IMG/VR virus record: IMGVR_UViG_3300021376_000248
Coordinates: 1 to 29,962 of that record
Direction: 5' to 3' (one strand)
Length of the DNA: 29,962 nt
Source: a virus
Made by a program: the position numbers and the translations under genes
Part shown: piece by piece, positions 4,489 through 20,369 of the stretch
Layout of the letters: each line of letters opens with the position of its first letter
Numbering within the stretch: position 1 is the stretch's first letter
Notes under the pieces: model-generated
What the model was told of the DNA's origin: nothing
Databases searched by the model: none
What the model saw: only the letters and a program-made list of their open reading frames with translations

Positions 4489-7400
4489 ATGGCAGATTTC
4501 AGATTAGGTAGATTAAAATTTAATTGGAGAGGTGATTGGGTAGTCAATACAGCATATGTCATTGATGACATTGTAAAGTTTGGCGCCAACACTTACGTGT
4601 GTATTTCAAATCACACATCCGTATCCAACCAAACTTTTTGGTATTCCAACGATGCCAGTAAATGGTCATTACATACGGAAGGCATTTACAATAAAGGAAA
4701 TTGGGCGGCATCTACTTTCTATAAACTAAACGATATTGTAAAGTATGGTAACATTCTTTATAGAACAATCGTTCCTCATACATCTGCCGCAACTTTTGTA
4801 GAGGCAAACTTTGCTTCATACTTAGACGGATTGAGGTTTGAAGATACTTGGAATGCTACAAGCGAATTTCAACCAGGAGATATTGTAACTCATGGTGGTT
4901 ACAGTTATGTTTCAAAATCAATCAACACAAATAAAGCTCCCAATCTAAATTTAATTACTGATTGGGAAATTTTAACTACAGGTTTTAAAGTTGTTGGTAC
5001 TTGGGATGTTGGGACCAACTACAAACCTGGAGATGTTGTACTACTTGGCGGCAACTCTTATGTTGCAAATATTACCAACTCTGGTACTCTTCCTTCCTCA
5101 AGTCCAACTACTTGGAGTTTTATTGTAGGTGGATTTACTTGGAAAGGAACTTGGAATTCTGGTACGCTGTATCAACCTGGAGATGCTATTTCAAGAAATA
5201 GTAATAGTTACATTAACGTAGCAACTTCTACAAATGATCCACCAGAACTTGATACTACTGGAACATATTGGAATTCTCTCGCTCAAGGTGCTCAAACAAA
5301 CGTATTGACATCTGCTGGTGATACTGTCTATCAAAGTGGATCTGGTCCAGCAAGATTGCCGATCGGTACAGTAGGTCAAACCCTAACTGTTTCTTCTGCT
5401 GGTTATCCCGAATGGAAAGATAATAACAAAACAGACCCCGTTTACTATGTAACTACAAACGGAAGCGATTTGAACGATGGGGAAAATATTACTGGCGCAT
5501 GGGCATCTTTAAGACATGCCTGTGATAACATTACTGGTCCTGCAACAATTTACGTTAAAGCAGGAACTTACTTTGAAACTCTTCCTATTATTATACCAGA
5601 CAATGTTTCTATTGTTGGTGATAACATAAGAACATCTGTCATTAAACCCAAAACTGGAAACAGTTCAACCGTAAGGCTTACTTTAGGAACAACTCCAGCA
5701 GCACAATATAGAGTATTGGGAGATGTTATTTCAGCAGGTGGCGGCGTAGCAAAAACTGCCATGATTTTAGATGTTGAAGCTGGTGGTGCTCAAATTATTA
5801 TTAAACCATTAACTGGTGGAGCATGGACAACTAGTGATACATATGAAACTGGTGTTGTTGATACTACAATCACTGCCGTTGAACCAATTACAAATGAAAA
5901 TTCTACCATGTTCTTTATGAGCAACAAAACAATGCTCAAAGATCTAGTTATGGATGGAATGAACGGATTTGTTCCATCAACAACTGATCCAAAAGACATG
6001 AACACCGCTACTATTAAGGGCGTATTTTTACGACTATATCCAAACTCCCCAACAACAAAATCGCCATATATTTCTCAGTGTTCTGCATTTTCAAATACTG
6101 GTGTTGGTGCTATTGTTGACGGCGATGTTCATGCAAAATGGGATGGGACTGCAACCAAATCAAACAAATCTATGTTGTTTGACTCGTTTACCCAAATTCA
6201 TGAGCAGGGTGGCGTAGGATTCTGGATTACAAATAATGGTAATTCAGAAATTGTATCTTCCTTCACTTATTATGCTCACATTTCTTATGCTGCAACTCGT
6301 GGAGGAGCTATTAGATCTCTTGCAGGCAACTCTTCTTGGGGTACTTACGCTATTGTTTCCTCTGGATTTAATACTAACGAGGCAACTTTAGATGGACAAA
6401 TCGATGGTAAAGAATTAAATTATATTACAGCTTCTCTTGTAGGTAATTTTGATACTGACGAAAGAATTACTGGATTAACTTCTGGCGCAATTGGAGAAAT
6501 TGTTAGTTGGCAAGCATCAAACCAAAAAATTCTTTACAGACCTTTGAAGGGAACCTTTGCTCAAAATGAAGGGATTATTGGTCAAACTACATCCGCAACA
6601 GCTACCTTGGTCAACAATGCTACAGCAAACCAAGGACAATCAGGATTCACACTATCTATAAAAGGGTTGGGCGCAGCTCCAAAAGCAGGTGGTTCAATTG
6701 AATTTATTACTGGTCCTGGTGGTTTAGGTGAAGAACCATTTACATTTGTTGTTGCAAACTCTTCTTATAAAGCACCAATTGGAAGAGGAACAATCAGTAT
6801 CACAAGAGGTTTATTAGGTTCCACTGCTGCATCTCATGATGGACTCTCAAGTTTGACTAGATATCAAACAGGAACTACAACAACTTTAACTGCTGCAATT
6901 AATTCCGCTTCTGAATCTACCATTTTTGTTACTTCAATTACAGGAATTACGGTTGGAGGTTTTATAATTGTAAACAACGAAATGATGAAAGTAGATTCGT
7001 TCCCAACTGCTACGTCAATTGTAGTATTACGAGGTCAGGAAGGAACAACAGCTGCTGTTCATGCTTCTGGTGCAACCGCGAGAGCAATCCAAATTAAAGT
7101 TCCAAATCAGACAACAACTCTTGGTGATATGACTCCAACATCGTCAACAATTAGAGTAGTATCTTCAAATGGTGTCTTAGTTACTGATTTTGTCAAATTA
7201 GATAACGAGTTTATGCAAGTAACTAATGTAGCTACCGACACTACAGGAAGTGTTTTAGTTGTTCTAACTCAAACAAAACCAACACCAACATTTGATACAC
7301 AAAGTTTTAAGATTAGATACTTGTATTCTCAAGTAAGATTAACTGGTCACGATTTCTTGAATATTGGAACTGGTGGGAAAACTACAACCAATTTCCCTGG

Positions 7401-7755
7401 ATTGCCTCTTGTAGCGGCAGCTCAAGGTAACGAAGTTACTGAGCAATTCCCAGGTCGTGTATTCTTTGTATCAACAGATCAAGATGGCAACTTTACCGTT
7501 GGTCGTTACTTTAAGGTTAATCAGGCAACTGGTAGTACAACTTTGAACGCATCTTCATTCGATTTGTCTGGTCTGTCATCTCTACGACTTGGTTCAATTG
7601 GTGCTCAACTTGGAGAAAGTATTAGTGAATTTTCTTCTGATACGACTTTATCTGCTAATAGCAACACCAAAGTTCCTACACAAAAAGCTGTGAAAACATA
7701 CATAGACAAGAAAACCAAAACAAAAGGATTTACCTTCTGGGCTGGTGGCGCCTGA
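4489..7755 (+). CDS. Large tail-fibre protein with five carbohydrate-binding-like repeats and a probable beta-helix
   Basis: A 1088-residue protein preceded by AAGGAA. Residues about 11-270 hold five consecutive repeats of roughly 50 residues, each with the core W....Y..GD.V..G...Y, as in chitin-binding-type modules (CBM5/12-like): GDWVVNTAYVIDDIVKFG, GNWAASTFYKLNDIVKYG, TWNATSEFQPGDIVTHGG, TWDVGTNYKPGDVVLLGG and TWNSGTLYQPGDAISRNS. From about 316 comes VYYVTTNGSDLNDG, then PATIYVKAGTYFE and PDNVSIVGDN, the signature of a right-handed beta-helix of the pectinesterase/lyase kind. I see no clear catalytic set. Residues about 800-930 hold two copies of a beta domain with a VNNEM or LDNEF core. 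The C-terminus (NTKVPTQKAVKTYIDK) resembles tail-fibre ends. It probably binds surface polysaccharide. Enzymatic activity is possible but not shown. Confidence 0.85.
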   Translation: MADFRLGRLKFNWRGDWVVNTAYVIDDIVKFGANTYVCISNHTSVSNQTFWYSNDASKWSLHTEGIYNKGNWAASTFYKLNDIVKYGNILYRTIVPHTSAATFVEANFASYLDGLRFEDTWNATSEFQPGDIVTHGGYSYVSKSINTNKAPNLNLITDWEILTTGFKVVGTWDVGTNYKPGDVVLLGGNSYVANITNSGTLPSSSPTTWSFIVGGFTWKGTWNSGTLYQPGDAISRNSNSYINVATSTNDPPELDTTGTYWNSLAQGAQTNVLTSAGDTVYQSGSGPARLPIGTVGQTLTVSSAGYPEWKDNNKTDPVYYVTTNGSDLNDGENITGAWASLRHACDNITGPATIYVKAGTYFETLPIIIPDNVSIVGDNIRTSVIKPKTGNSSTVRLTLGTTPAAQYRVLGDVISAGGGVAKTAMILDVEAGGAQIIIKPLTGGAWTTSDTYETGVVDTTITAVEPITNENSTMFFMSNKTMLKDLVMDGMNGFVPSTTDPKDMNTATIKGVFLRLYPNSPTTKSPYISQCSAFSNTGVGAIVDGDVHAKWDGTATKSNKSMLFDSFTQIHEQGGVGFWITNNGNSEIVSSFTYYAHISYAATRGGAIRSLAGNSSWGTYAIVSSGFNTNEATLDGQIDGKELNYITASLVGNFDTDERITGLTSGAIGEIVSWQASNQKILYRPLKGTFAQNEGIIGQTTSATATLVNNATANQGQSGFTLSIKGLGAAPKAGGSIEFITGPGGLGEEPFTFVVANSSYKAPIGRGTISITRGLLGSTAASHDGLSSLTRYQTGTTTTLTAAINSASESTIFVTSITGITVGGFIIVNNEMMKVDSFPTATSIVVLRGQEGTTAAVHASGATARAIQIKVPNQTTTLGDMTPTSSTIRVVSSNGVLVTDFVKLDNEFMQVTNVATDTTGSVLVVLTQTKPTPTFDTQSFKIRYLYSQVRLTGHDFLNIGTGGKTTTNFPGLPLVAAAQGNEVTEQFPGRVFFVSTDQDGNFTVGRYFKVNQATGSTTLNASSFDLSGLSSLRLGSIGAQLGESISEFSSDTTLSANSNTKVPTQKAVKTYIDKKTKTKGFTFWAGGA

Positions 7756-8521: not shown

Positions 8522-9451
8522 ATGTCCAGTTTAAGAAATCTTTTAGATGCTGCAGATGTTAATTCAGTACCTTCCCCCACATTTTATGGTGAAGTAAATT
8601 CTCACCAAATTTGGTTTAGAGGTGGTCACTGTTGGACTTTTGACAATAGTTATGAGTATCACAGACAATATCTTACGTGGTGCGTTCCAGCAAAATGTGT
8701 TTGTAAGGTTAAGTTTGAAATTTGGGGCGGCGGTGGCGGCGGCGGGGGTTCTTGCTGCTGTATGACAAGTTGGCCAGGAGCTTCTGGACAATATCAACAA
8801 TGTACTGTCTGTGCAGCAGATCGAGGGGTTAATCAACTGGATTGTTGTTGCTATGACATCTGTGTTGCGTCAGGGACTTGCAGACACCCAGGAAACGGTG
8901 GATATGATGGTTGTAAGACATTTATTATTGGTCCAGGATTAGATGCCTTCTGTGCCTGTGGTGGATGCACTGGATATAGTTGCTGTTTTGGTCATGCGTT
9001 TTATGCTGGTGCATGTCAAACTAGATTAAACTGGATGGTTGGAGAACCATGGAATAGATGGCAAACAGACAAATATTCTTGCTGTCGTGAAATAAGAGCG
9101 TGTTGTAATGCTGAAGGAAAGGATTACTGGGGAAATTTGGGAGGTTACAACCAATCAGATTGCCAAGATTGTGGAAACTGGTGCTGGATGAAGAGATTTG
9201 CTCCTTCTGCACCAAATCAAGATGCAAGAATGGGAACGTGGTCTACAATTAGATATCACACGATGGCTTCTTGCGGCAGAACAGAAACACTGTGGTTAAC
9301 TGGCAATAATGGTGGATTAAGTAGTGATTGTTTTAGAAATGGTCCTCCTGGTATGGGCGCTATGGGTTCAGATACGTATGGCGGTGGTTGCTGCTGTGGT
9401 AGCGAGGGTGCATATGGATTAGTTAAAATTTCAGTATTCTGTAAACAATAA
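8522..9451 (+). CDS. Gly/Cys-rich fibre-like protein, copy 1 of 3
   Basis: A 309-residue protein with 34 cysteines by hand count, many in pairs or triplets (SCCC, DCCC, GCCCG). After an N-terminal head beginning SSLRNLL comes TWCVPAKC, then a polyglycine stretch FEIWGGGGGGGGSCCC. Further on are GCKTFIIGPGLDAFCA and a C-terminal GGGCCCGSEGAYGLVKI. The same landmarks occur in the two following genes, so the three are tandem paralogues. No signal peptide is visible, so the cysteines would be made in a reducing cytoplasm and may pair only after virion release, or bind metal. A receptor-binding tip or adhesin is the likely role, from Gly-rich composition and context. The start has only a weak AGG upstream but aligns with the other copies. 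Confidence 0.85.
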   Translation: MSSLRNLLDAADVNSVPSPTFYGEVNSHQIWFRGGHCWTFDNSYEYHRQYLTWCVPAKCVCKVKFEIWGGGGGGGGSCCCMTSWPGASGQYQQCTVCAADRGVNQLDCCCYDICVASGTCRHPGNGGYDGCKTFIIGPGLDAFCACGGCTGYSCCFGHAFYAGACQTRLNWMVGEPWNRWQTDKYSCCREIRACCNAEGKDYWGNLGGYNQSDCQDCGNWCWMKRFAPSAPNQDARMGTWSTIRYHTMASCGRTETLWLTGNNGGLSSDCFRNGPPGMGAMGSDTYGGGCCCGSEGAYGLVKISVFCKQ

Positions 9452-9468
9452 AGAGGATTTGTAAAGAA

Positions 9469-10404
9469 ATGGCTAATCTAAGAGGGTTATTAGGAAAAGA
9501 ATTTGGATCTACACTTTTAACTACTGCTGGTGAGGTAGGGTCTTTAAGTAGAGTAAGAGATGGCAAGCAATTTGTTTTCCATCCATATTGTAATCTAAAC
9601 AACTGTGAAGCAAACTATCATGAATATTGTTTACTGAACTGGTGTGTTCCTTGTGGAACGACTCAGATAACATTTGAGTTATGGGGTGGCGGGGGATCTG
9701 GAGCTGGCGGTTGCTGCTGTCAGCAAGGGATACCAGGAGGATCTGGAGCGTATGTAAGAAAAACAATTACTACATGCGGAGATTCTGGATGGCAAGGTGG
9801 GTGTCGTTATGCATTGTTTGTTGCTCCACCAACATGTTGTTCTGCGTGTTGTGTAGGTATTCAGGGGTGTAAAACTTATATTACTGGTCCAGCAATATCT
9901 AATCTTTGTGCAGAAGGTGGATTACCAGGCAAAACTTGCTGTTATGCTTTTTGGTCTACTGAATTTAGATGTCAAGATAGAGTTTACTTTACTGGTGCTG
10001 GTGGTTATAGTCCAACTGCTAATTGTTCCTGTGGATTTGGTGGAGATTGCATAATTCCTGGTAGACCAGGATTCTTTAGAATATATAATACATCAAATAA
10101 TTGTAATGCTAAAATAGGTTTAGCATATCCAGCAAAACTGATTGATGATCTAGGTGGTCACATAATGTCAAAAAATATGGGCAATTCTTGTATTAATGAC
10201 TATACATATTGTCAGGGAACGACTCCGTATGCATATAATATGAACTGTAATAATACTTTGCCTGGCGTTGGATCTCCTTCATCAACTAGTTGTGCTGGTG
10301 GATGTTGTTATGGATGGCGAGGGGGTGGAGGTTTAATTAGAATTACATATTGTTCCTGCTGGATTGGATTAAATCAAAATTGTGCGTATCATTTCTGTAA
10401 CTAA
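9469..10404 (+). CDS. Gly/Cys-rich fibre-like protein, copy 2 of 3
   Basis: A 311-residue paralogue of the preceding protein, with 33 cysteines by hand count. It shares the head ANLRGLLG, NWCVPCGT, FELWGGGGSGAGGCCC, IPGGSGAYV, GCKTYITGPAISNLCAEGG and the end GGCCYGWRGGGGLIRI. The region between about residues 170 and 270 differs strongly from copies 1 and 3, as expected for a receptor-facing part under diversifying selection. A short Cys-containing tail (CSCWIGLNQNCAYHFCN) extends beyond the common end and is absent from copy 3. AGAGGA upstream of the ATG serves as ribosome-binding site. Function is inferred as for copy 1. Confidence 0.85.
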   Translation: MANLRGLLGKEFGSTLLTTAGEVGSLSRVRDGKQFVFHPYCNLNNCEANYHEYCLLNWCVPCGTTQITFELWGGGGSGAGGCCCQQGIPGGSGAYVRKTITTCGDSGWQGGCRYALFVAPPTCCSACCVGIQGCKTYITGPAISNLCAEGGLPGKTCCYAFWSTEFRCQDRVYFTGAGGYSPTANCSCGFGGDCIIPGRPGFFRIYNTSNNCNAKIGLAYPAKLIDDLGGHIMSKNMGNSCINDYTYCQGTTPYAYNMNCNNTLPGVGSPSSTSCAGGCCYGWRGGGGLIRITYCSCWIGLNQNCAYHFCN

Positions 10405-10428
10405 ATACGTTTAATAAAGGAAGTACAA

Positions 10429-11343
10429 ATGGCTAGTTTAAGAACACTCCTAGGTATCGTGACAGAGAGCTCTCTGGCATCTGCTTCTGCACCAGATGCT
10501 TTTTCTAAGTTGCCACCATACCCATCTCCAGGGCGCTGCGTTCAGTATATCTCTGCTCTCCATGGAGCTACTTGTCAAGGTTATGATACAAGTTTTGATT
10601 ACTATGCATATCAAGCTTGGTGCGTTCCTGCTGGGGTCTCGGATGTAATTTTTGAAATCTGGGGAGCTGGCGGCGGCGGAGGTTCTAGTTGCTGCTGTGG
10701 AAGGGCAATTCCAGGTGGTTCTGGGGCATATGCTGTAAAAAGAATAAGAGGTACTCTTTCTGGAACTACTTCTAGTATTCAAGGGTGCTGTTATTCTATT
10801 GACGTTGCTCAACCTGGAAATGGCAGAGATGGTAATACTTGTGGTCAACAAGGCGGAAAAACTTTTATTACAGGATTTGGATTAACTAATTTTTGTGCAG
10901 AAGGCGGTCATGGTGGTTGTTCTTGCTGCTATGCCTGCTGCTGCACTTGGTACAATATAGTGCAGAATGGAGGAACTACGCGAACTGGTTGTTTAGGCGG
11001 TTGTTGTGCCTCGTATTTTGGAGCAGATAGCGGCGCCTTTGGAACCCCAGGAGCAGCATATTTTTGGTGCTACGATAATCATTGTTGGAACAAACAGTTT
11101 ATCCCATATCCAGCTGGTCTCGTAAATGGTAAAGGCGGATGGTTGCCAGCAAATGTCTGTGAAAATAGTGGTTGTGGTTATTGCTTAAATCATTATGCTA
11201 TGACTCAATTGCCTTGGGGCGGTGGATTCACAGAAAATAATTATATTCCTGGTGTTGGGGGATCTAGTGGTTGGACATGTGGTGGTGGTTGTTGCTATGG
11301 TCAACAAGGAACCCCAGGACTAATTCGTATTAGTTTCAAGTAA
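10429..11343 (+). CDS. Gly/Cys-rich fibre-like protein, copy 3 of 3
   Basis: A 304-residue paralogue with 27 cysteines by hand count. Landmarks in order are ASLRTLLG, AWCVPAGVSD, FEIWGAGGGGGSSCCC, IPGGSGAYAV, GGKTFITGFGLTNFCAEGG, a CSCCYACCC cluster near residue 165, and the end GGGCCYGQQGTPGLIRI. It is closer to copy 2 than to copy 1 in the AEGG and GLIRI regions. AAAGGAAG upstream of the ATG is the ribosome-binding site. As with its paralogues, it is likely a virion adhesin or fibre tip. The abundance of adjacent cysteines is very unusual for a virion protein and is the main feature to explain. Confidence 0.85.
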   Translation: MASLRTLLGIVTESSLASASAPDAFSKLPPYPSPGRCVQYISALHGATCQGYDTSFDYYAYQAWCVPAGVSDVIFEIWGAGGGGGSSCCCGRAIPGGSGAYAVKRIRGTLSGTTSSIQGCCYSIDVAQPGNGRDGNTCGQQGGKTFITGFGLTNFCAEGGHGGCSCCYACCCTWYNIVQNGGTTRTGCLGGCCASYFGADSGAFGTPGAAYFWCYDNHCWNKQFIPYPAGLVNGKGGWLPANVCENSGCGYCLNHYAMTQLPWGGGFTENNYIPGVGGSSGWTCGGGCCYGQQGTPGLIRISFK

Positions 11344-11351
11344 TATAAATA
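11344..11351 (+). promoter_or_regulatory. T4-type late promoter TATAAATA
   Basis: Exact octamer directly after the stop of the third Cys-rich gene and 25 bases before the ATG at 11377. It gives the 229-residue gene its own late transcription. Confidence 0.7.
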
Positions 11352-11376: not shown

Positions 11377-12066
11377 ATGGCAATTAAAATTATTTCAAAT
11401 AAATTTTCATATGATTTACCAGATGATTATCTTTCACAAACATCTGCAAAAAAATTAACTGCGGAGTGGGAGTATAACGGTCCAGAAAAACTTTTTGTTT
11501 TTATTGATAATGAAACTGGAGCATTAAAATATTTTCAATCATATATTCCTCACGATGGTACAGAGGAATCTGCACAGGGTGCGGTTATAAGAGCAGGATT
11601 AGATTCCACTGCTGTTCTTCTTACTCCTGGAACTGATGATACTCATGCGTTAGTTGCATCTCTTTTCATGGCATTTGATACATCAAGAGTTGCTGGTTAT
11701 CCGCAGAAAGAGTATAAAATTGATGGCGTAACTTTATATGAGCGCCCAGATCCAACACCACCTGATCATACATACGAAGCACCAGAAATAAAATATGATT
11801 TAGAAAAAGGGGAATTTGTAAAACCATTTTCTTGGAAAAAACCATGGGTTACTGAGGAACAGCATAGAACAGTTAGAGATAGTATTATTGAGGACGCGAA
11901 GAGAGATTTAGATAACGAAGAACTTTCCGAAGAAGTACGTGCAAAACTACCAGAGTTTATTAAAAAATTAGAAGAAACTTACGAAAAGTTTGCTGGTTGG
12001 GAAGTTTATATGATTCCATTCCCAGATGATCCTAGAACTCCCCAAATCGATGGATTTACATGGTGA
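11377..12066 (+). CDS. Hypothetical protein, 229 residues, last gene of the adhesin region
   Basis: I do not recognise a family. The N-terminal half is mixed alpha/beta, with a segment (HALVASLFMAFDTSRVAGYP) that contains the only moderately hydrophobic stretch. Pro-rich RPDPTPPDH follows at about residue 127. The C-terminal third is charged and helical (EELSEEVRAKLPEFIKKLEE), ending in IPFPDDPRTPQIDGF. There is no signal peptide. It lies directly behind the three adhesin-like genes, has its own late promoter and is closed by a strong terminator. By position it could be a tail-fibre assembly chaperone or a fibre-associated protein, since many phage fibre genes are followed by such a helper. 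That is inference only. Confidence 0.75.
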   Translation: MAIKIISNKFSYDLPDDYLSQTSAKKLTAEWEYNGPEKLFVFIDNETGALKYFQSYIPHDGTEESAQGAVIRAGLDSTAVLLTPGTDDTHALVASLFMAFDTSRVAGYPQKEYKIDGVTLYERPDPTPPDHTYEAPEIKYDLEKGEFVKPFSWKKPWVTEEQHRTVRDSIIEDAKRDLDNEELSEEVRAKLPEFIKKLEETYEKFAGWEVYMIPFPDDPRTPQIDGFTW

Positions 12067-12071
12067 TATTT

Positions 12072-12099
12072 AAAGAGGCGGATATCCGCCTCTTTTTTT
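12072..12099 (+). terminator. Strong rho-independent terminator
   Basis: AAAGAGGCGGAT (12072-12083) is followed directly by its reverse complement ATCCGCCTCTTT, a perfect palindrome, and then by more T residues up to 12099. This is the strongest terminator in the window. It separates the adhesin region from the sugar module. Confidence 0.9.
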
Positions 12100-12102
12100 G
12101 TG

Positions 12103-12110
12103 TCTAAATA
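12103..12110 (+). promoter_or_regulatory. Candidate late promoter TCTAAATA
   Basis: Seven of eight bases match TATAAATA. It lies just after the terminator and 39 bases upstream of the glycosyltransferase ATG at 12150. It is the only late-promoter-like site before the sugar operon, so if functional it would drive the operon from 12150 to 18410. Confidence 0.4.
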
Positions 12111-12149: not shown

Positions 12150-13286
12150 ATGAGACCAAAATCATTTTTTGTGAACGGTGGTGCAGGCAGAGTATTATGT
12201 TCTATCCCAGCGTTTGAAAGGTATAAAGAAGATCATCCAGACGAAGATTTTGTTATTGTATGCGAAGGAGGCACAGATTTTTTTAAAGGTCATCCTAAAT
12301 TATATTCTCACGTATACGATAATTGGCATAAAAATCTTTTTAAAGATAAGTTAGTGCATACAGATATTGAAACTCCAGAACCATATCGTATTTGGGAATA
12401 TTATAATCAAAAATGCAATTTGTCGCAAGCATTTGATATTGCTATTAATAAGAAGGGTATTAGAGATCTTCCAAAACCAACAATTAAATTATCTAGAGAA
12501 GAAGAAATCAATGGTAAATTTCTTGTAGCGGAAGTAAGGGAAAAAACAAAAAAAGAAAAAACGGTTGTTTTTCAACCATTTGGTAGAGGAGTACAGAATT
12601 TAGGTAATTTAATTATAGATTCTTCGGGAAGAAGTTTTGAATATGCAAGCGTTTTAAGTATTGTCAAAAAATTACAGAAAAAATATTCTGTAATAGTAAT
12701 GACAGAACTTGCATTAAATTTTGAGGTCGAAGGAATTAAAGATCCCGTCGCTGTGCCATCTGGATTACCAATTAGACATTGGGCGGGCGTTATTAAAGAT
12801 GCGGATTTATTTATTGGTTGTGATTCTGTTGGTCAGCACATTGCGTATTCTGTCGATACGCCAGCAGTAGTTGTAGTTGGTTCTACCTTTAAAGAAAATA
12901 TTTCATATCCAGATTCAGAAAAATTTGAAGTCCTAGATATGGGAGAGGGTCTTAGAGTTTATGATCCAATAAGAATTTCTATGGATGAAGAATCTGCTAG
13001 AACCAATGATGGTATTATGGTAATGAATGAAAAAATTGAAGAGGTTATTTTAAAATCAGTTGATAAACTGATGAATAAATACTATAAGAAACCTTTAATG
13101 AAGGTTATTCCTCCAACACAAGAAGAACAATCGTCTTGCTGTCCACCCAATTTAACAGGACAAAATTCTTCTAGTAATCCAAATTTAATCCCAGCATTAC
13201 TGGAAAATAACAATCAAAATATTTTTGATAAAATTGGCAAATCTCCTGCATCTGGATTTGCAAACACTGTAAACATTAAAAAATGA
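12150..13286 (+). CDS. Glycosyltransferase family 9-like protein (heptosyltransferase-like)
   Basis: A 378-residue protein with the two-domain GT-B outline of ADP-heptose:LPS heptosyltransferases. The N-terminal GGAGRVLCSIPAF (residues 10-22) corresponds to the GxGDxxxxxPA motif of the family. The C-terminal domain has VVFQPFGRG near 145 and LFIGCDSVGQHIAYSV near 221-236, the conserved (V/C)D....H.A nucleotide-sugar region with Asp225. In WaaC-type enzymes the N-terminal motif carries a catalytic Asp; here that position is Arg14. The last 60 or so residues form a Pro/Ser/Asn-rich tail with a CC pair, beyond the normal fold. I see no clear ribosome-binding site. Donor and acceptor are unknown. 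Heptose is suggested by the adjacent hld-like genes. Confidence 0.8.
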   Translation: MRPKSFFVNGGAGRVLCSIPAFERYKEDHPDEDFVIVCEGGTDFFKGHPKLYSHVYDNWHKNLFKDKLVHTDIETPEPYRIWEYYNQKCNLSQAFDIAINKKGIRDLPKPTIKLSREEEINGKFLVAEVREKTKKEKTVVFQPFGRGVQNLGNLIIDSSGRSFEYASVLSIVKKLQKKYSVIVMTELALNFEVEGIKDPVAVPSGLPIRHWAGVIKDADLFIGCDSVGQHIAYSVDTPAVVVVGSTFKENISYPDSEKFEVLDMGEGLRVYDPIRISMDEESARTNDGIMVMNEKIEEVILKSVDKLMNKYYKKPLMKVIPPTQEEQSSCCPPNLTGQNSSSNPNLIPALLENNNQNIFDKIGKSPASGFANTVNIKK

Positions 13287-13300
13287 TTTGAGGTATATAA

Positions 13301-15001
13301 ATGTCAATTATTGCATCAATTGCCCGTGGTCACAACGGTAGTACGACTTTGCTTGTTGATGGGGAAGTTGTTTTTTACTTAGAAGAAGAACGCTTATCAA
13401 GATTTAAATACGATGGATCTCCATTATTAGGACTAGCGAAGGTATTTGAATACGTTGATCACATTGATCATTTGGTTGTTTGTCATACTCATCGAGCGGG
13501 ATCTAAGTTGGATTGGACTGGCGAGGATATGTATGAGGGGTGGGTAAGAAAGTTAGCAAAGAAAAAGTTTAAATTTGAAACGCACTTCATTGATGTCGCA
13601 CACCACGAAATGCACGCTGCTTGTGGTTTTTATAACTCTGGATTTGAAACTGCCGCTTGTGTAATTGCAGATGGTGCAGGTAGTTTCTTACAATTAGAAG
13701 GGTGTCCAGATATTTCTTATGAATTTGAAACAATTTTCCAAGCAAGTTATCCTAATGATTTTGATACCATATACAAACATATCGGCACAAAGGCAGCAAT
13801 TGGTTTTCATGAAATAGAATCTGGAGTTTTCCTAACTGAATATCCAGGTTTGACTAAAATGTATGAAGCAGTAACTCAATATTGTGGATTTCCTGCTATT
13901 GAAGCTGGTAAATTAATGGGTCTAGCACCATATGGAAATCCAAACGATGATCTACCTTCATTTTTTGAGGGTGAATATGGGAATAGAAGTTTAATTATTC
14001 CAACTTATCCAAACGCAGCTCAAATTAATGTTAATCGCTATCCTATTTTAGCATATGATGTTAAAAAGCATATGAAAGGAGTAAATGAATACACTCAAAT
14101 TCAAAAAGATTTAGCATATAAAATTCAAGAAGAATCTTCAAATAGAATGGTTCAATTGATTCGCAAAGCACACGAGGAAACGGGGGAGAAAAATATTGTA
14201 GTTTGTGGTGGTTATGGATTAAATTGTGTAGCGAATTATAAGTATTGGAAAGAATTCCCAAATCTCAATATTTACTGTGAACCAATTTCTCATGATGGTG
14301 GTACATCTATTGGTGGGGCAAAGTATATTTGGAATCAACTAACCGAAAACACTAAAACTTCTAAACAATCTTCTGTGTATTATGGACCTCAATATGATCC
14401 ATCTACTTATGAAAATGATTTAAAAGGTCTAAATGTTACTGATACTTCTTATGATGAAGTTGCAAAACTAATTCGTGAAGGTAATATTGTTACCCTGTAT
14501 CAGGGTCGTTCTGAGGGTGGTCCTCGTGCTCTTGGTAATCGTTCAATTTTGTTTGATCCAACTATTAAGGATGGAAAGGATATTGTAAATACTGTGAAGC
14601 GCCGCGAATGGTTCCGTCCATTCGCTTGCTCAATTAAAAAAGAAGCAGTTCACGAATGGTTTGATCTTGCTGGTAGAGATGAAACTCCACATATGATGTT
14701 TGCTGTATCTTGTTTAGACGGTGTAGCAGAAAAAATTCCTTCCGTAATTCACGTTGACGGAACTTGCCGTATTCAAACAGTAACTAAAAAGCAAAATGAA
14801 CATTATTATAATTTAATTGATGCATTTGAAAAGTTAAGCGAAGTTCCAATTCTTTTCAATACCAGTTTTAATCTTGGTGGAGATCCTTTAGTCGAAACAA
14901 TCGAAGATGCAATCAAAACATTAACCGAAAGTGATATCGAATACTTATACTTACCAGAAATTCAAAAATTAGTAAAAATTAGTAACTCAGATAAAGAATG
15001 A
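13301..15001 (+). CDS. O-carbamoyltransferase, NodU/CmcH family, copy 1
   Basis: A 566-residue protein of the usual length for the family, which transfers carbamoyl from carbamoyl phosphate (via carbamoyl-AMP) to a sugar hydroxyl. The Kae1-like N-terminal domain has the start IASIARGHNGSTTLLVDG with His11, EEERLSRFK, the metal site HHEMHA (His101, His102, His105) and Asp124 in IADGAG. The YrdC-like C-terminal domain has GRSEGGPRALGNRS (402-415), FRPFACSI, VDGTCRIQT and LFNTSFNLGGDP. The ATG is preceded by GAGG. It follows the glycosyltransferase by 14 bases and precedes a second carbamoyltransferase by 3 bases, so all three are in one operon. It uses CGT/CGC arginine codons around the GRSEGG motif, where copy 2 uses AGA/CGA. 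Confidence 0.92.
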   Translation: MSIIASIARGHNGSTTLLVDGEVVFYLEEERLSRFKYDGSPLLGLAKVFEYVDHIDHLVVCHTHRAGSKLDWTGEDMYEGWVRKLAKKKFKFETHFIDVAHHEMHAACGFYNSGFETAACVIADGAGSFLQLEGCPDISYEFETIFQASYPNDFDTIYKHIGTKAAIGFHEIESGVFLTEYPGLTKMYEAVTQYCGFPAIEAGKLMGLAPYGNPNDDLPSFFEGEYGNRSLIIPTYPNAAQINVNRYPILAYDVKKHMKGVNEYTQIQKDLAYKIQEESSNRMVQLIRKAHEETGEKNIVVCGGYGLNCVANYKYWKEFPNLNIYCEPISHDGGTSIGGAKYIWNQLTENTKTSKQSSVYYGPQYDPSTYENDLKGLNVTDTSYDEVAKLIREGNIVTLYQGRSEGGPRALGNRSILFDPTIKDGKDIVNTVKRREWFRPFACSIKKEAVHEWFDLAGRDETPHMMFAVSCLDGVAEKIPSVIHVDGTCRIQTVTKKQNEHYYNLIDAFEKLSEVPILFNTSFNLGGDPLVETIEDAIKTLTESDIEYLYLPEIQKLVKISNSDKE

Positions 15002-15004
15002 TTT

Positions 15005-16675
15005 ATGTGGACACTTGGAGTAAATACATCACATGATGGTGCAATTTGTTTAATGAAAAATGATCAGATTATTTTACACTTGCAAGAAGAAAGAATTTCC
15101 CACAAAAAACATGATAAAGAAATTATATACTTACTTGATTTAATTTCAAAATATACAAAACATTTAGATTTGGTTGCCTATACTCATTTATATAATAAAC
15201 AAACTGATTTTGGAACATATTATAAATTATTCTCCAAGAATGGAATTGTTGTAAAAAAATATATAAATCTTTCAGAATACCATCATTCACTACACGCCCT
15301 ATGTGCTTTTTATAACTCTGGTTTTGATGATGCGGCATGTGTTGTGGTTGATGGAGCGGGATCAGATTTTGAATTTGGAAAAGAAAATGAGTCCATTTTT
15401 ATTATGTCTTTTCCTGTAGATTATGAATGTTTGTATAAATCTGTTATTGGATATGGAATTGATACTATAGATAACAAAAATCATCCATTTGTTGATCCAG
15501 TTTCAAAAATTGGTGCTGGTATGATTTATTCTGGCGTGACAGAATATCTTGGTTGGGATGGTTTAGAATGTGGAAAAACAATGGGATTATCTTCATATGG
15601 AAAAGAAGACGAAAATATAAAAATAATGCTATCGGAATCTGGTGGCAATGAAAATTTATTTAATTTGTGGGATTTCAACCAATTTCAACATGTTGGCGCT
15701 AGAATGAAGCAGTATGAATATCTTTCACACTACAAAGATAAAAAAGATTTAGAAAGAAAAAAACAAAATTTATGCTATGCTTTACAGAAACAATTTGAGC
15801 AATATATGCTTCAATTAATTTACAAAGCTATTTCTATTACTAATAAAAAAAATATCCTTTTAACTGGAGGGTGTGCATTAAATTGTGTTAATAACTATCG
15901 CCTGTTAAAAAATTTGCCTCCAGATATTAAATTATATGTTGAACCAATATCTGATGATTCTGGTACAGCAATGGGTGCTGCAAAGATGGCTTATTACCAA
16001 AACGAAAGAAAAAAATATATACCAAAATATAAAAAAACAAATATAAAAAATTTGTATTTTGGGCAACCAATTAAATATGAATACAATTTATATGAGTGGG
16101 AGATACAATCGGATTGTTCTTTTAAAGATGCCGCTCAACTAATTGCTGATGGTAATATAGTTGCTTTGTGTCAAGGTAGATCAGAAGCAGGTCCACGAGC
16201 TTTGGGAAATAGATCTATTCTATTTGATCCCAGAAATCCTAATGGAAAAGATATAGTAAACCGAGTAAAAAAAAGAGAATACTTTAGACCATTTGCTGGA
16301 ACTGTTTTATTAGAACATGCTAAGGAATGGTTTGATATGGATAAATTAGAAGAAAGTCCATTCATGATGTATGCAGTTGATGTGTTAGAATCTAAAAGAA
16401 ATTTAATACCAGCAATTACTCATGTAGATGGAACTTGTAGAATTCAAACTTTAACTGAGGAGCAAAATTTAAATTACTACACCTTAATTAAAGAATTTTA
16501 TAATCTTACAGGTGTTCCAATTTTATTTAATACTTCATTTAATTTAGCTGGTGATACAATGGTAGAAGATATGGACGATGCCTTCAAAACAATGCGGTGC
16601 AGCGAAATTCAATATTTAATTCTTCCAGAAATTAGTAGTATGATTTATTTTCCTAATGAAAAAAATATTTGTTAA
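15005..16675 (+). CDS. O-carbamoyltransferase, NodU/CmcH family, copy 2
   Basis: A 556-residue protein with the same architecture as the preceding gene. It has LGVNTSHDGAICLM with His10, LQEERISHKK, HHSLHA (His93, His94, His97), Asp116 in VVDGAG, GRSEAGPRALGNRS (391-404), YFRPFAGTV, VDGTCRIQT and LFNTSFNLAGDT. All the metal-binding and YrdC-type signatures seen in copy 1 are kept, so it looks active. The middle of the protein and the codon choice differ (very A-rich, AGA arginines), so this is not a recent tandem duplication; the two probably carbamoylate different positions or sugars. The next start codon lies 20 bases inside its 3' end, which implies translational coupling. Confidence 0.92.
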   Translation: MWTLGVNTSHDGAICLMKNDQIILHLQEERISHKKHDKEIIYLLDLISKYTKHLDLVAYTHLYNKQTDFGTYYKLFSKNGIVVKKYINLSEYHHSLHALCAFYNSGFDDAACVVVDGAGSDFEFGKENESIFIMSFPVDYECLYKSVIGYGIDTIDNKNHPFVDPVSKIGAGMIYSGVTEYLGWDGLECGKTMGLSSYGKEDENIKIMLSESGGNENLFNLWDFNQFQHVGARMKQYEYLSHYKDKKDLERKKQNLCYALQKQFEQYMLQLIYKAISITNKKNILLTGGCALNCVNNYRLLKNLPPDIKLYVEPISDDSGTAMGAAKMAYYQNERKKYIPKYKKTNIKNLYFGQPIKYEYNLYEWEIQSDCSFKDAAQLIADGNIVALCQGRSEAGPRALGNRSILFDPRNPNGKDIVNRVKKREYFRPFAGTVLLEHAKEWFDMDKLEESPFMMYAVDVLESKRNLIPAITHVDGTCRIQTLTEEQNLNYYTLIKEFYNLTGVPILFNTSFNLAGDTMVEDMDDAFKTMRCSEIQYLILPEISSMIYFPNEKNIC

Positions 16676-17054
16676 TGGTTGTTTTGATGTGTTGCATCCT
16701 GGTCATTTTAAACTTTTTGAATACGCTAAATCTCTTGGCGATTATTTAATTGTTGCAATAGATTCAGATAGAAAAGTGTCTGAGATGAAGGGAAGTGGCA
16801 GACCAATATTTTGTCAAGAGGACAGAGCATATATTTTAGAAACAATTAAATATATTGATGCTGTCCACATATTTGATAGTAAGCAGGGATTGGAAAATTT
16901 GATAAAAATTATAAATCCTGATATACTAGTAGTAGGATCTGATTGGAAAGGAAAAGAAGTAGTAGGTGCAGAACATGCAAAAGAAGTTCGGTTTTTCGAC
17001 AGAGTTGGAACTTTCTCCACAACCAAAACAATACAAGGTTCTTCTTATAGGTGA
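16656..17054 (+). CDS. Heptose-1-phosphate nucleotidyltransferase, HldE C-terminal-domain type
   Basis: A 132-residue single-domain cytidylyltransferase-fold protein. It has NGCFDVLHPGH with the nucleotide-binding HPGH at residues 14-17, GDYLIVAIDSD, KGSGRP, DILVVGSDWKG and the ending STTKTI (121-126). The GCFD, GxGRP and STT signatures fit the adenylyltransferase half of HldE, which makes ADP-heptose from heptose 1-phosphate. The DWKGK part also resembles TagD-type glycerol-3-phosphate cytidylyltransferases, so the substrate is not certain. The adjacent kinase and HldD-like epimerase favour heptose. It starts 20 bases within the previous gene and overlaps the kinase gene by about 80 bases. 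In most bacteria this domain is fused behind the kinase; here it stands alone and in front. Confidence 0.85.
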   Translation: MKKIFVNGCFDVLHPGHFKLFEYAKSLGDYLIVAIDSDRKVSEMKGSGRPIFCQEDRAYILETIKYIDAVHIFDSKQGLENLIKIINPDILVVGSDWKGKEVVGAEHAKEVRFFDRVGTFSTTKTIQGSSYR

Positions 17055-17763
17055 TAGTTGTATTGATCGTTACGTCTATGGTAAATGCTCTAGATTGAGT
17101 CCAGAGGCACCAGTTCCTGTACTAGAATTTTCTAGGGCACACCAAACAATGGGCATGGCGTGGAACGTTCGGGTTAATCTTCTAGCATTTGGTATCGAAG
17201 TTTATATGTTGACAAATCACAACCATCCAATCAAAACTAGATACGTTGATGAAAAATCAAATCATCAGATTATGAGATTAGATGAAAACGATCAAGTAGA
17301 CGAATTTGATTATGATTTGCCAGATCAAACAGAATATGACGCTTTAGTTATATCAGATTATAATAAAGGATTTCTAACTCAAGAAAAACTTTTTAAATTA
17401 GTTGCTTGGTTTAATGGTCCAGTATTTGTTGATAGTAAAAAAACTATTCTCCCAATTGATTGTTACTTGAAGTTAAACGATATAGAATCTAGTAAGTTGG
17501 TGGGAGATTACCCCTTTCTTATTACAACTAAAGGATCTGCGGGAGCAACATACAAAGGCAAAGTTTATCCAGGAATTAAAGTTCCTGTGTTTGATGTTGC
17601 GGGTGCTGGGGATACTTTTTTATCTGCTCTCGTTTATTTTTATTTGAAACTTGGCACAATAGAATATGCTATACCATATGCAAATAGAGCAGCCGCTATA
17701 GCAGTTCAAAACTCTGGAACATATATTCTTACTAATGAGGACGTAAATGATTTATGTAATTGA
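16975..17763 (+). CDS. Sugar kinase, HldE N-terminal-domain (PfkB) type
   Basis: A 262-residue protein when started at ATG 16975; an in-frame GTG at 16966 is an alternative. [32 protein letters not shown] matches in pattern the substrate-side start of D-glycero-beta-D-manno-heptose 7-phosphate kinases (shown here as [14 protein letters not shown] and SPEAPVPVL, residues 21-50). The ATP-site motif is DVAGAGDTF (207-215), with Asp213 as the expected catalytic base. [10 protein letters not shown] and VFVDSKK also fit. It is shorter than the usual kinase half (about 310-320 residues): the central lid region is reduced, the expected TPN.E segment is missing, and the GGAAN motif reads MGMAWN. Activity is therefore less certain than fold. 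Its start overlaps the previous gene in another frame by about 80 bases. Confidence 0.82.
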   Translation: [262 protein letters not shown]

Positions 17764-18073
17764 TATTGATGGGACGATTTGTGATAGTCCAGAATCTCTT
17801 AAAGATGGTAATTATGATACCAGTATTCCAAAGGTAGATAGAATTCAAAAAATTAATGCCCTGTATGATGATGGGCACACAATTAAGTATTTCACTGCAA
17901 GAGGAATGGGTAGATATAATTCAGGTATCTTAGCACAAAAAATTTTTTATAACACAACTTACGACCAATTGATATTATGGGGATGTAAATTTCATAATTT
18001 AATTATGGGTAAACCATCTGGAGATATATACATAGATGATAAAGGGGTGAATGCTAATGACTTCTTCAATTAA
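17747..18073 (+). CDS. Small HAD-family phosphatase-like protein
   Basis: A 108-residue minimal HAD fold. It has VIDIDGTICDS with the nucleophile pair Asp6 and Asp8, IKYFTARGMGR as motif II with Thr, and GDIYIDDKGVNANDF with the motif IV acidic pair (97-98). There is no cap domain. Such small HADs are common in capsule and sugar-nucleotide operons. In this operon it is the best candidate for the heptose-1,7-bisphosphate phosphatase step (GmhB role), but it is shorter than GmhB and lacks its zinc-binding cysteines, so the substrate is only inferred. It begins 17 bases inside the kinase gene and its end overlaps the cupin gene, consistent with coupled translation. Confidence 0.82.
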   Translation: MIYVIDIDGTICDSPESLKDGNYDTSIPKVDRIQKINALYDDGHTIKYFTARGMGRYNSGILAQKIFYNTTYDQLILWGCKFHNLIMGKPSGDIYIDDKGVNANDFFN

Positions 18074-18410
18074 AGTTGTCCCTAAAGGATGGGGATTTGA
18101 AAAATGGATTGTTAATAATGAACAGTATTGTGGAAAACTTTTATATTTTGTAAAAGATAAAAGTTGCTCCTGGCATTATCATAATATAAAAGACGAAACG
18201 TTTTATATTCAATCTGGAAAACTTATTTTGTTTTACGGAGAAGATGATGATATTAATTTAGCACAAAAAAAAGTTTTGAGGAAGGGCGATCATTTTCATG
18301 TTCATGTAGGACTTAGACATAAAATGTATGCTTTAGAAGATACCGAAATGTTTGAATTTTCAACTAAACATCTTGATATTGATAGTATTAGAGTTATAAA
18401 GGGCGATTAA
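18057..18410 (+). CDS. Small cupin protein (sugar isomerase/epimerase-like)
   Basis: A 117-residue single cupin domain. Motif 1 is CSWHYHNIKDETFYIQSG with metal ligands His40, His42 and Glu47. Motif 2 is GDHFHVHVGLRHKM with His88 as the likely fourth ligand. The start PKGWGFEKWIVNNEQYCGK resembles the C-terminal cupin of mannose-6-phosphate isomerase/GDP-mannose pyrophosphorylase proteins. ATG 18057 is chosen over ATG 18051 because AGGGG at 18043-18047 is then correctly spaced. The gene overlaps the HAD gene by 17 bases. Its role is probably sugar-phosphate isomerisation or regulation in this operon; the substrate cannot be told. Its 3' end overlaps the opposite-strand epimerase gene by 17 bases. 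Confidence 0.82.
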   Translation: MTSSIKVVPKGWGFEKWIVNNEQYCGKLLYFVKDKSCSWHYHNIKDETFYIQSGKLILFYGEDDDINLAQKKVLRKGDHFHVHVGLRHKMYALEDTEMFEFSTKHLDIDSIRVIKGD

Positions 18411-19182
18411 TATAATCTTCTATGTTAGTAAAATTATAATCTATCCAATTCATATTTGCACAAGTATTGCTTTGATATTTACCTTTTAAATTTTCGGGGA
18501 ACGGAATTGTTTCAATTTTTGCTCCCTCTTTTTTTGCAATCAATTCTGCAACATTTTGAAAAGACGTTGATATTCCAGTCCCCAAATCATAAATTCCAGA
18601 TGGTTGATTATTGGTTAAAAGAATATCAACTATATCACCAACGTATATAAAATCTCTATAAAAATTTTGTGACCCTTCAAAAACTTTTATTGTTTTATCT
18701 TGTTTTGCTTGCCAAGTAAATTTACTAATTGGACTTGCTTGATCCTTTTTATGCTCTTCATTTTCTCCATAAACATTAAAAAATCTATAACCACAAATAT
18801 TTTTAAATTTATCTATATTATCTTGAACATAATAATCTATTTGTGTTTTAGTGATAGCGTAATAATTTAAAGGATTAATTTCTTTAGATAATGAGTGACC
18901 ATATACAGAAGCAGAAGAAGCATATTTAACTGGTATCTGATATTCAATTGCTTTTTCAAATAATCCAATTGTATATTCTACATTGTATTTGTGGAGTTTA
19001 CTAATATCTTTTTCTGTAGTGGAGGATATTGCTCCTAGATGAATGATTTCGTCTATAGTATTCCAACTTTTAAAGTGCTCCAAAACTGGAAACGCATTTA
19101 CATAATCTACTGCTACACTATCTCCAATAGTGCTGGCAAAATGCTGTCCAATAAACCCCTTGCATCCAGTAAGAAAAATCAT
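18394..19182 (-). CDS. hldD: ADP-L-glycero-D-manno-heptose 6-epimerase (HldD/RfaD-like)
   Basis: A 262-residue short-chain dehydrogenase-type protein, the only minus-strand gene in the window. The Rossmann motif is GCKGFIG (6-12). EIIHLGAISSTTEKD, YASSASVYG and the YAITK catalytic pair (Tyr108, Lys112) follow. FFNVYGENEEHKKDQAS and FEGSQNFYRDFIYVGD come next, then GIYDLGTG, SFQNVAELIA and IPFPENLKGKYQ. This order of motifs is specific to HldD and includes the Lys after EEH that corresponds to the HldD-specific second catalytic Lys. It is about 50 residues shorter than the E. coli enzyme. ATG 19182 is chosen because the Rossmann fold starts there. It inverts C6 of ADP-heptose. It converges on the cupin gene (17-base overlap) and diverges from the fibre gene at 19236. 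Confidence 0.9.
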   Translation of the reverse strand: MIFLTGCKGFIGQHFASTIGDSVAVDYVNAFPVLEHFKSWNTIDEIIHLGAISSTTEKDISKLHKYNVEYTIGLFEKAIEYQIPVKYASSASVYGHSLSKEINPLNYYAITKTQIDYYVQDNIDKFKNICGYRFFNVYGENEEHKKDQASPISKFTWQAKQDKTIKVFEGSQNFYRDFIYVGDIVDILLTNNQPSGIYDLGTGISTSFQNVAELIAKKEGAKIETIPFPENLKGKYQSNTCANMNWIDYNFTNIEDYINRPL

Positions 19183-19192: not shown

Positions 19193-19204
19193 CATTTATA
19201 AATA
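19193..19204. promoter_or_regulatory. Overlapping divergent late promoters
   Basis: On the plus strand TATAAATA (19197-19204) is an exact late octamer 31 bases before the ATG at 19236. On the minus strand TATAAATG (19200-19193) matches seven of eight bases but lies only 10 bases before the epimerase start at 19182, which would leave almost no leader. The plus-strand site is convincing, the minus-strand one tentative. The whole gap between the two genes (19183-19235) holds nothing else I can identify. Confidence 0.6.
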
Positions 19205-19235: not shown

Positions 19236-20369
19236 ATGACAGCACCCACATTTGGATATTTAGCGTCCATCACTCCAAGTAAAAAACTTAAAACTGTATT
19301 GCATGTCGCCCCAGCATCTAAACTTGTTCAGGGAAAAATAACAGTAACGCATAAAAATCCCTGTCCAGTAAGAATCAGAATTGGAGTTTCTTCTGGTTCA
19401 TTAACAACATTCTCAGCATCAAATTATATTATATACGATTTAGTTCTTGATCCAGGAGAAAGTTACGAATCTGATGTAGTATATTATGGAAATAATCAAT
19501 CATTGGTTGTTTTTAGTGATTTTGATAACACCAGTTTTATTATTAATGGAGAACAGATAGATAATCCAGTAAATTCTGGATTTTTGGCATCTTCTAAAAT
19601 TATAACGGTAAGGAAGAATCTTTCTCTTTTTACAGTTCCAGCAGGTAGAGAAGTAAATCTTTCTGTATTTGCAACTAATCAAGGTCCTAACCAAGCAAGA
19701 ATGAGAATTGGTGTTTCCGATACTGGAACCACTTTACCATCATCAAATTACTTAGAATATGAAACACAATTAAATCCTCGTTCTACATATCAGCGAACTG
19801 ATATTAAAATGAGTGGCGGGCAATCTTTAATTGTTTATGGAGATACAACTGATCTCAGTTTTGCTGCTTATGGTAAATTTAATTTTAATATAGTTGCTAC
19901 TGATTTGTCGGTTAATGGAAACTTGAATGTTTTACAGAACGCGACTATACAGCAAGATCTTTCTGTAGGCGACGATCTTTATGTAACAGGAACTTCGGAG
20001 TTTGTTGATAACGTTACATTAAATAAAGATTTATCCGTTTACGGTGGGTTATTTGTTGGTCCGAATAATGCGCCTAAATTTACGGTTTCTCCTACCACAG
20101 GGAATTTAGTTTCTTCTGGTTCTTTAACCTTAACTGGTGGAATTACTGCTACGGGAAATCTATCAATTAATAATAAATTTACTGTCGCTTCAACTAGTGG
20201 TGACACCACTATTGCTGGCAATATTTCCTTATCTGGTGGGATTACATCTAATTTAAATGTTCTAAATAATAGGGTAATAAACATAGCAGAACCTACCAGT
20301 TCATCTGATGCTGCTACTCGTAAATATGTTGACAATAAATCCATCGCTTTGGCAATTGCTCTCTCATAA
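19236..20369 (+). CDS. Fibre protein with two copies of a small beta domain and a repetitive shaft
   Basis: A 377-residue protein. Residues about 5-110 and 112-220 are two copies of the domain found alone in the protein at 7829-8152 (VRIRIGVSS, SNYIIYD, SLVVFSD; then FTVPAGREV, ARMRIGVSD, SNYLEYE, SLIVYGD). Residues about 225-340 are a repetitive shaft of short strands (LSVNGNLNVLQNATI, LSVGDDLYVTG, LSVYGGLFVG, GSLTLTGGITATGNLSI), as in many phage tail fibres. The C-terminus NRVINIAEPTSSSDAATRKYVD is a common fibre-end motif. It is transcribed from the exact late promoter at 19197 and followed after 22 bases by the giant 1667-residue gene. A tail-fibre or baseplate-attached role is inferred. 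Confidence 0.82.
   Translation: MTAPTFGYLASITPSKKLKTVLHVAPASKLVQGKITVTHKNPCPVRIRIGVSSGSLTTFSASNYIIYDLVLDPGESYESDVVYYGNNQSLVVFSDFDNTSFIINGEQIDNPVNSGFLASSKIITVRKNLSLFTVPAGREVNLSVFATNQGPNQARMRIGVSDTGTTLPSSNYLEYETQLNPRSTYQRTDIKMSGGQSLIVYGDTTDLSFAAYGKFNFNIVATDLSVNGNLNVLQNATIQQDLSVGDDLYVTGTSEFVDNVTLNKDLSVYGGLFVGPNNAPKFTVSPTTGNLVSSGSLTLTGGITATGNLSINNKFTVASTSGDTTIAGNISLSGGITSNLNVLNNRVINIAEPTSSSDAATRKYVDNKSIALAIALS

Follow-up and report, generated by a model that had tools for sequence, protein, structure and literature searches.

A candidate GmhA-independent ADP-heptose cassette among the tail fibre genes of a T4-like cyanophage

Introduction

The canonical pathway to ADP-heptose proceeds through GmhA, HldE, GmhB, and HldD. 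In cyanophages, Sullivan et al. (2010; PMC3037559) counted T4-GC 304, 305, 307, and 308 among seven co-occurring lipopolysaccharide (LPS) genes and, in the part of that paper which deals with them, left open whether they have a function or are stuffer DNA. Heptose genes have also been reported from SynMITS9220M01 (PMC7378029), and a precedent for protein heptosylation is provided by TibC, which heptosylates serines of an adhesin (PMC4358343). Here, we describe a gene block at positions 12150–19182 of the IMG/VR virus record IMGVR_UViG_3300021376_000248 (positions 1 to 29,962, the whole of which is referred to below as the window). The DNA belongs to a T4-like cyanophage, with the Synechococcus phages S-CAM3 and S-CAM1 as nearest named relatives; the genome of this phage is known only from these 29,962 bases, a fragment, and searches of it were limited to them. 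The block sits between fibre genes and neck genes and probably encodes an ADP-heptose pathway that is independent of GmhA, with a cupin as the candidate for the isomerase step. An initial annotation, made from the DNA sequence, had taken a system of this make-up to be new, which does not hold, as the block is already annotated in P-SSM2, S-SSM7, S-CAM1, and S-CAM3 and was partly noted in 2010.

Results

Relatives of the ADP-heptose enzymes

The genes of the block are as follows:

12150..13286, plus strand: GT9-fold (heptosyltransferase-like) glycosyltransferase with a disordered C-terminal tail (AlphaFold model, VIA Z-scores)
13301..15001, plus strand: O-carbamoyltransferase 1, NodU/TobZ type (PF02543 and PF16861 above cut-off, PF16861 E 9e-59; phrog_1601)
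15005..16675, plus strand: O-carbamoyltransferase 2, NodU/TobZ type (PF02543 and PF16861 above cut-off, PF16861 E 6e-60)
16656..17054, plus strand: heptose-1-phosphate adenylyltransferase of the HldE-C type (RfaE domain II; TIGR02199 8e-35; GxFDxLHPGH)
about 16975..17763, plus strand: heptose-7-phosphate kinase of the HldE-N type (RfaE domain I; TIGR02198 1e-38; GAGD)
17747..18073, plus strand: small HAD phosphatase of the EcbF/BcbF type (EcbF/BcbF-like 4e-5; 9iqw 1.6e-18), proposed heptose-1,7-bisphosphate phosphatase
18051..18410, plus strand: cupin, proposed sedoheptulose-7-phosphate ketol-isomerase in place of GmhA (conserved residues, PDB matches, GmhA replacement pattern)
18394..19182, minus strand, convergent: ADP-heptose 6-epimerase of the HldD type (TIGR02197 1e-57; E. 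coli HldD 1eq2 1.4e-57)

The sugar genes named in the initial annotation are real, since family and profile searches place recognizable families at these coordinates, with their catalytic motifs intact. The LHPGH motif of the nucleotidyltransferase, GAGD of the kinase, DxDxT of the HAD, and YxxxK of HldD, along with its equivalent of K178, are conserved across eight or more relatives. The best families of the kinase and the nucleotidyltransferase are TIGR02198 and TIGR02199, respectively, each matched below its equivalog cut-off, and both the GAGD of the former and the GxFDxLHPGH of the latter are invariant. The top PDB match of the kinase is HldA from B. cenocepacia (4e84, 2.5e-26); its start codon is uncertain (GTG at 16966 or ATG at 16975), and from either one the gene overlaps that of the nucleotidyltransferase. 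The epimerase likewise falls below the equivalog cut-off of TIGR02197; its Y108 and K112 form the YxxxK pair and K145 aligns with K178 of E. coli HldD (1eq2), so that the equivalents of Y140, K144, and K178 are all kept.

Conserved DxDxT, TAR, KP, and DK motifs, together with the profile match to 9iqw, characterize the small HAD. It belongs to the EcbF/BcbF type, and no GmhB (HAD-IIIA, TIGR00213) was found in nine complete relatives. GenBank and PHROG name this protein “phosphoheptose isomerase”; given its HAD-type motifs and solved HAD relatives, that assignment is ruled out and the name is therefore a misnomer. As to GmhA itself, a family search detected no GmhA-type (SIS) isomerase in the block, and the nine complete relatives contain no SIS_2 protein, which speaks against a GmhA elsewhere in the phage genome.

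The cupin as candidate isomerase

The initial annotation described a possible pathway, complete apart from GmhA. The absence of GmhA from the block was borne out, whilst the gap is probably filled by the cupin, the one gene left to explain, judging by the replacement pattern described below, and the pathway looks complete. The proposal that the cupin replaces GmhA, which that annotation did not contain, is our most original result. A limited literature search found no paper that connects a cupin with GmhA and heptose, and an earlier description elsewhere is possible.

The cupin is ~60% identical among the phages compared. Residue conservation, for this protein and for the glycosyltransferase, was scored on alignments of IMG/VR and GTDB loci; among 70 aligned cupin homologues, Lys29, His44, Glu49, and His90 are invariant and His42 is kept in at least 90%. 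The metal site reads H-x-H-x4-E...H plus an upstream Lys, and the K-x12-H-x-H-x4-E spacing equals that of L-ribose isomerase. L-ribose isomerase, D-lyxose isomerase, and other sugar isomerases also top the list, weakly (E 6e-4 to 0.02), when the cupin profile is compared with the PDB, and among the first Foldseek matches of the AlphaFold model (pLDDT 96) are D-lyxose isomerases in complex with fructose and mannose. The score of the cupin against the D-lyxose isomerase family PF07385 (15.1) is below the gathering score of 20.8. Its PHROG name, cysteine dioxygenase, is not supported: these enzymes occur among the fold matches, as many cupins do, but sequence does not point to them as the closest relatives. 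Both names, “phosphoheptose isomerase” for the HAD and “cysteine dioxygenase” for the cupin, are attached to the window genes and to GenBank relatives (L001, L003, L004), and appear wrong. The cupin family also occurs alone, apart from heptose genes, in Woesearchaeota and Planctomycetales (L018, L030, L032).

Exchange of cupin and GmhA in Patescibacteria

Relatives of the cupin in GTDB include those of Peribacteria and Peregrinibacteria, in which a single open frame joins it to an HldE-type kinase; these fusions adjoin GmhB, HldE-C, and a GT9 gene. The kinases fused to the cupin are near-canonical HldE proteins (TIGR02198 1e-95 to 1e-102). We searched for the kinase and GmhA in 192 genomes of the class and 333 of the phylum, and rechecked 27 kinase-positive genomes for both isomerases. 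A linked cupin is present in nine of the 27 (seven cupin-kinase fusions, one kinase-cupin fusion, and one adjacent pair), none of which has GmhA at E<1e-50. GmhA was found in all 18 genomes that are without a linked cupin (17 at E<=2e-54, one at 2e-29), mostly directly beside the kinase; two of these, G242 and G190, carry an unlinked cupin, and in several others the cupin matches are no more than weak and distant. The Fisher exact test gives 2e-7, or 4e-6 if the genome G016, to which we return below, is counted as GmhA-positive, although these are not true probabilities, as the genomes are related, kinship is uncorrected, and completeness values are not given. Four of the nine genomes with a linked cupin (G011, G013, G014, and G016) had been found via the cupin itself; when these are left out, five genomes stand against 18, for which that test gives 1 in 33,649, with kinship likewise ignored.

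The positional evidence for the swap is stronger than the genome count. Locus L057 reads RmlD-like/cupin/kinase/GmhB/nucleotidyltransferase, whereas L061 reads RmlD-like/GmhA/kinase/GmhB/nucleotidyltransferase, and in L059, GmhA is fused to the kinase where other genomes show cupin-kinase. A shared operon slot combined with swapped fusions is, as far as gene order can tell, the signature of non-orthologous replacement, and suggests that the missing GmhA step is probably performed by the cupin.

The cassette in other viral loci

The same ordered block lies between fibre genes in S-CAM1, S-CAM3, P-SSM2, S-SSM7, and Sf-FS3, as well as in many IMG/VR contigs, which excludes chance. Eighty IMG/VR loci were then collected with the kinase, rather than the cupin, as seed. 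The nucleotidyltransferase is present in 79 of them and the cupin in 74 (in the other six, the contig ends within a few kb of the kinase), and a GmhA (SIS) gene in none of the 80. Several other viral contigs (L313, L314, L316, and L318) carry kinase, cupin, HAD, nucleotidyltransferase, and HldD within ~3 kb, in an order unlike that of the cyanophages: five genes for five steps. Comparative genomics thus lends strong support to the ADP-heptose pathway, in which two of the five steps are apparently taken by non-canonical families.

Eighty viral loci were also collected with the GT9-like gene as seed. A carbamoyltransferase accompanies it in 77 and the fibre-region gene phrog_9740 in 71, and in most related loci fibre-type genes of phrog_4205 lie next to the pair of GT9 and carbamoyltransferase genes. 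About half of the 80 show no heptose cassette, in some cases because contigs end. Co-occurrence with fibre genes among related phages, which the initial annotation had proposed to survey, is seen for the GT9-carbamoyltransferase pair and only in part for the heptose genes, which also occur in glycosyltransferase clusters. The pair thus follows the fibres, and the heptose cassette seems to be an add-on.

Several other features of these loci were recorded. Transketolase-like genes lie beside the heptose genes in S-SM2 (L006) and P-TIM68 (L008), with an aldolase-like gene too in S-SM2, and might feed a different sugar precursor. In S-SSM7, Sf-FS3, and P-SSM2 (L004, L007, and L003), and in many viral contigs, prolyl-hydroxylase-like 2OG-Fe(II) oxygenases lie interspersed among the fibre and heptose genes; speculatively, this would fit hydroxylation of acceptor proteins. 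The heptose cassette is also carried by contigs of metagenome-assembled genomes labelled Euryarchaeota, Planctomycetaceae, and Rhodobacteraceae (L011, L012, L013, L016, and L033), two of which (L016 and L033) have a cyanophage fibre-type block; all five look like phage contigs binned with cellular genomes. Contig 3 of the Prochlorococcus single-cell genome AG-409-P03 (L042/L043) holds a UvsX-like gene, a cupin, a kinase, and other sugar genes. We rejected this cupin as a host gene, as the contig with its UvsX-like gene looks like phage, likely one caught in the single-cell genome.

The glycosyltransferase and the carbamoyltransferases

The GT9-like protein scores 20 bits against Pfam PF01075, short of the gathering cut-off of 22, and a sequence search against the PDB gave no matches. 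Its AlphaFold model (pLDDT 85) aligns in VIA with the GT9 structure 3tov (Z 23.5), WaaF (21.0), TibC (19.5), and WaaC (19.4), compared to 12.4 for the next, unrelated GT-B enzyme; GT9-type entries overall score Z 18–23 and other GT-B enzymes about 12, and the modelled fold is clearly that of GT9. Among the cysteines, only C224 is invariant in 50 homologues; C17, C38, and C89 are nearly so and are spread along the N-terminal half. Membership of the TibC family was rejected, as the four-cysteine iron finger is absent.

In both carbamoyltransferase genes, Carbam_trans_N and Carbam_trans_C are above cut-off, and the second protein is 40% identical to the first; a full-length second copy was not found in the S-CAM1, S-CAM3, and P-SSM2 loci. 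Papers on S-SZBM1 and Nanhaivirus ms29 assign the carbamoyltransferase genes of those phages to pyrimidine synthesis, a role that is ruled out here by the two-domain NodU/TobZ architecture.

Host context

The LPS of marine Synechococcus WH8102 and CC9311 contains neither heptose nor 3-deoxy-D-manno-octulosonic acid (KDO), according to the passage of PMC4515613 that cites Snyder 2009. The view taken in the initial annotation, that marine picocyanobacterial LPS is without the usual heptose core, is upheld for these two strains by that passage. Sf-FS3, Sf-CH5, and Sf-CH8, which were isolated on WH8102, carry genes of the heptose cassette. Across 101 genomes of the host family, an HldE-kinase match is present in five (one on a phage-like contig) and a GmhA-like gene in 28, none of them above the curated cut-off, and the phage could therefore not generally rely on host enzymes; GmhA supplied by the host is possible in some hosts and not a general solution. 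Sedoheptulose 7-phosphate is an intermediate of the Calvin cycle, and the substrate should thus be present in the host.

Neighbouring features of the window

Other features around the block are:

8522..11343, plus strand: three tandem Gly/Cys-rich fibre-type proteins, proposed acceptors (phrog_4205, E 8e-67, 2e-80, and 7e-72)
11377..12066, plus strand: phrog_9740 protein, upstream of the module (present in 71/80 GT9-seeded viral loci)
12072..12095, plus strand: intrinsic terminator dividing the fibre genes from the module (10-bp stem and T tract)
19236..20369, plus strand: tail fibre gene that closes the block (phrog_11338), with TATAAATA upstream at 19197

The strong terminator that the initial annotation placed ahead of the module is thus present. 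Its late-promoter-like site fared less well: CTAAATA, at 12104, is no commoner in the window than expected by chance. TATAAATA, a T4-type late-promoter core, occurs at 3603, 3946, 7786, 11344, 19197, 25396, and 25414, all seven on the plus strand and with a total count within chance; the sites nearest the module are those at 11344 and 19197. Farther upstream, a tail fibre protein of 1088 amino acids (4489–7755) has a triple CBM_5_12 match (PF02839, 5.9e-19), a domain that is, to our knowledge, unusual in a cyanophage fibre.

Discussion

On balance, we favor the view that the block forms a glycosylation cassette complete in itself, by which ADP-heptose is made, transferred by the GT9 enzyme, and carbamoylated, the likeliest acceptors being the neighbouring fibres. 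What the analysis shows is the set of genes, their catalytic motifs and folds, their conserved order, and a comparative pattern of cupin in place of GmhA; from these we infer all of the chemistry, including the HAD step, as well as the acceptor. The cupin would convert host sedoheptulose 7-phosphate into D-glycero-D-manno-heptose 7-phosphate, in the place of GmhA; the HldE-type kinase would then phosphorylate C1, and the small HAD, in the place of GmhB, would remove the phosphate at C7. Adenylylation by the HldE-type nucleotidyltransferase and epimerization by HldD would yield ADP-L-glycero-D-manno-heptose, from which the GT9-fold enzyme would transfer heptose, presumably to the neighbouring Gly/Cys-rich fibre proteins, and the NodU/TobZ-type enzymes would carbamoylate it. 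An ADP-heptose pathway with transfer and carbamoylation among fibre genes had been proposed in the initial annotation; the gene set, families, and synteny support it, whilst the cluster is not unique and heptose genes are found in glycosyltransferase clusters too.

Several observations weigh against parts of this scheme. The phage kinase is ~60 residues shorter than HldA-type kinases, and its substrate may differ. VIA-align groups many cupins together, and its fold scores do not pick out the isomerases; the modelled cupin fold alone does not decide function. G016, which has a linked cupin, also has an unlinked, weaker SIS protein, and the occurrence of the cupin family away from heptose genes (L018, L030, and L032) and unlinked in the GmhA-positive genomes G242 and G190 indicates that not all of its members need act in the place of GmhA. 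In the glycosyltransferase, an invariant Arg14 occupies the apparent place of the catalytic Asp (D13 in WaaC, D110 in TibC), as judged by eye, and its catalytic detail may differ from that of TibC. Finally, in S-SM2, P-TIM68, and S-T4 the same five heptose genes lie within larger glycosyltransferase clusters, so that heptose need not always be destined for fibres; the cluster of this kind in Bellamy includes the cupin along with a HAD and other sugar genes.

This last context is what an alternative destination would draw upon, namely that ADP-heptose is made and the sugar is put on the host surface late in infection, remodelling LPS or capsule so as, for example, to block superinfection or keep progeny from sticking to debris. 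GT9 enzymes are classically builders of the LPS core, and Sullivan et al. (2010; PMC3037559), in the part cited, speak of “LPS genes”. We nevertheless regard a host-surface target as rather unlikely, since the sugar genes in the window come without any further glycosyltransferase, flippase, or polymerase, the GT9-carbamoyltransferase pair tracks fibre genes, and marine Synechococcus LPS is reported, in the passage of PMC4515613 noted above, to be without a heptose core. Given the synteny, the GT9 fold, and the heptose-free host LPS, the most plausible use of the cassette would be to decorate the phage's own fibres with a carbamoylated heptose, at a likelihood only a shade better than even. The whole chain, in which a complete, Calvin-cycle-fed ADP-heptose pathway with a hitherto unrecognized class of cupin isomerase serves to O-heptosylate and carbamoylate the phage's own tail fibres, is a tentative proposal that falls somewhat short of probable.

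It is improbable that the product is a different activated sugar (another heptose, a hexose, or a pentose) for which the cupin acts as epimerase, ketoisomerase, or stability factor. The truncated kinase, a HAD that is not GmhB, the NCBIfam scores of kinase, nucleotidyltransferase, and HldD below their equivalog cut-offs, and the many functions of cupins would all suit such a sugar, but these three enzymes each match heptose families best, and in Patescibacteria near-canonical HldE kinases have the cupin as a fusion partner, beside canonical GmhB and HldE nucleotidyltransferase. That the block is acquired cargo with no selected function seems very improbable indeed: although its distribution among cyanophages is sporadic and Sullivan et al. 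(2010; PMC3037559), in the part cited, leave function versus stuffer open, the catalytic residues are invariant across 40–60% divergence, and the genes stay together, either in a fixed order or rearranged without loss of any member.

If the proposed role is correct, the cupin would be a specific candidate for a second, unrelated enzyme class at the first committed step of ADP-heptose synthesis, and would explain how the pathway can exist without GmhA in phages and some Patescibacteria. It would also correct misleading names on cyanophage records, which could mislead pathway reconstructions. Should the sugar be placed on fibres, the phage would encode its own system for protein heptosylation, which would matter for the host range and adsorption of abundant marine phages.

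Comparison with known systems

The phage kinase, nucleotidyltransferase, and epimerase are relatives of HldE and HldD with motifs intact, as in the canonical GmhA-HldE-GmhB-HldD pathway, but the kinase and nucleotidyltransferase are separate, overlapping genes, and GmhA and GmhB are absent, with a cupin and an EcbF/BcbF-type HAD instead. The cassette is identical in content, order, and place to T4-GC 302–308 of P-SSM2 and S-SSM7 (PMC3037559), which the cited part of that paper describes as LPS genes of unknown function, with no isomerase role proposed there for the cupin (T4-GC 307). With the TibC/AAH autotransporter heptosyltransferases (PMC4358343), the phage glycosyltransferase shares a GT9-like catalytic fold (Z 19.5), but it has neither their N-terminal barrel nor their four-cysteine iron finger, and the catalytic Asp is apparently not kept. 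Both domains of the carbamoyltransferases are above curated cut-offs, as in NodU/TobZ enzymes, whereas the proteins are below the NodU equivalog cut-off, stand as two tandem copies in the window, and have a putative acceptor. The cupin differs from D-lyxose/D-mannose isomerase and the cupin phosphomannose isomerase in being a single 119-amino-acid domain below the Pfam Lyx_isomer cut-off, with a putative heptose-phosphate substrate, but shares with them the cupin fold, the H-x-H-x4-E...H site plus Lys, and, as proposed, the same aldose-ketose type of reaction. We view the block as a known pathway in variant form, and not as a system of a new kind.

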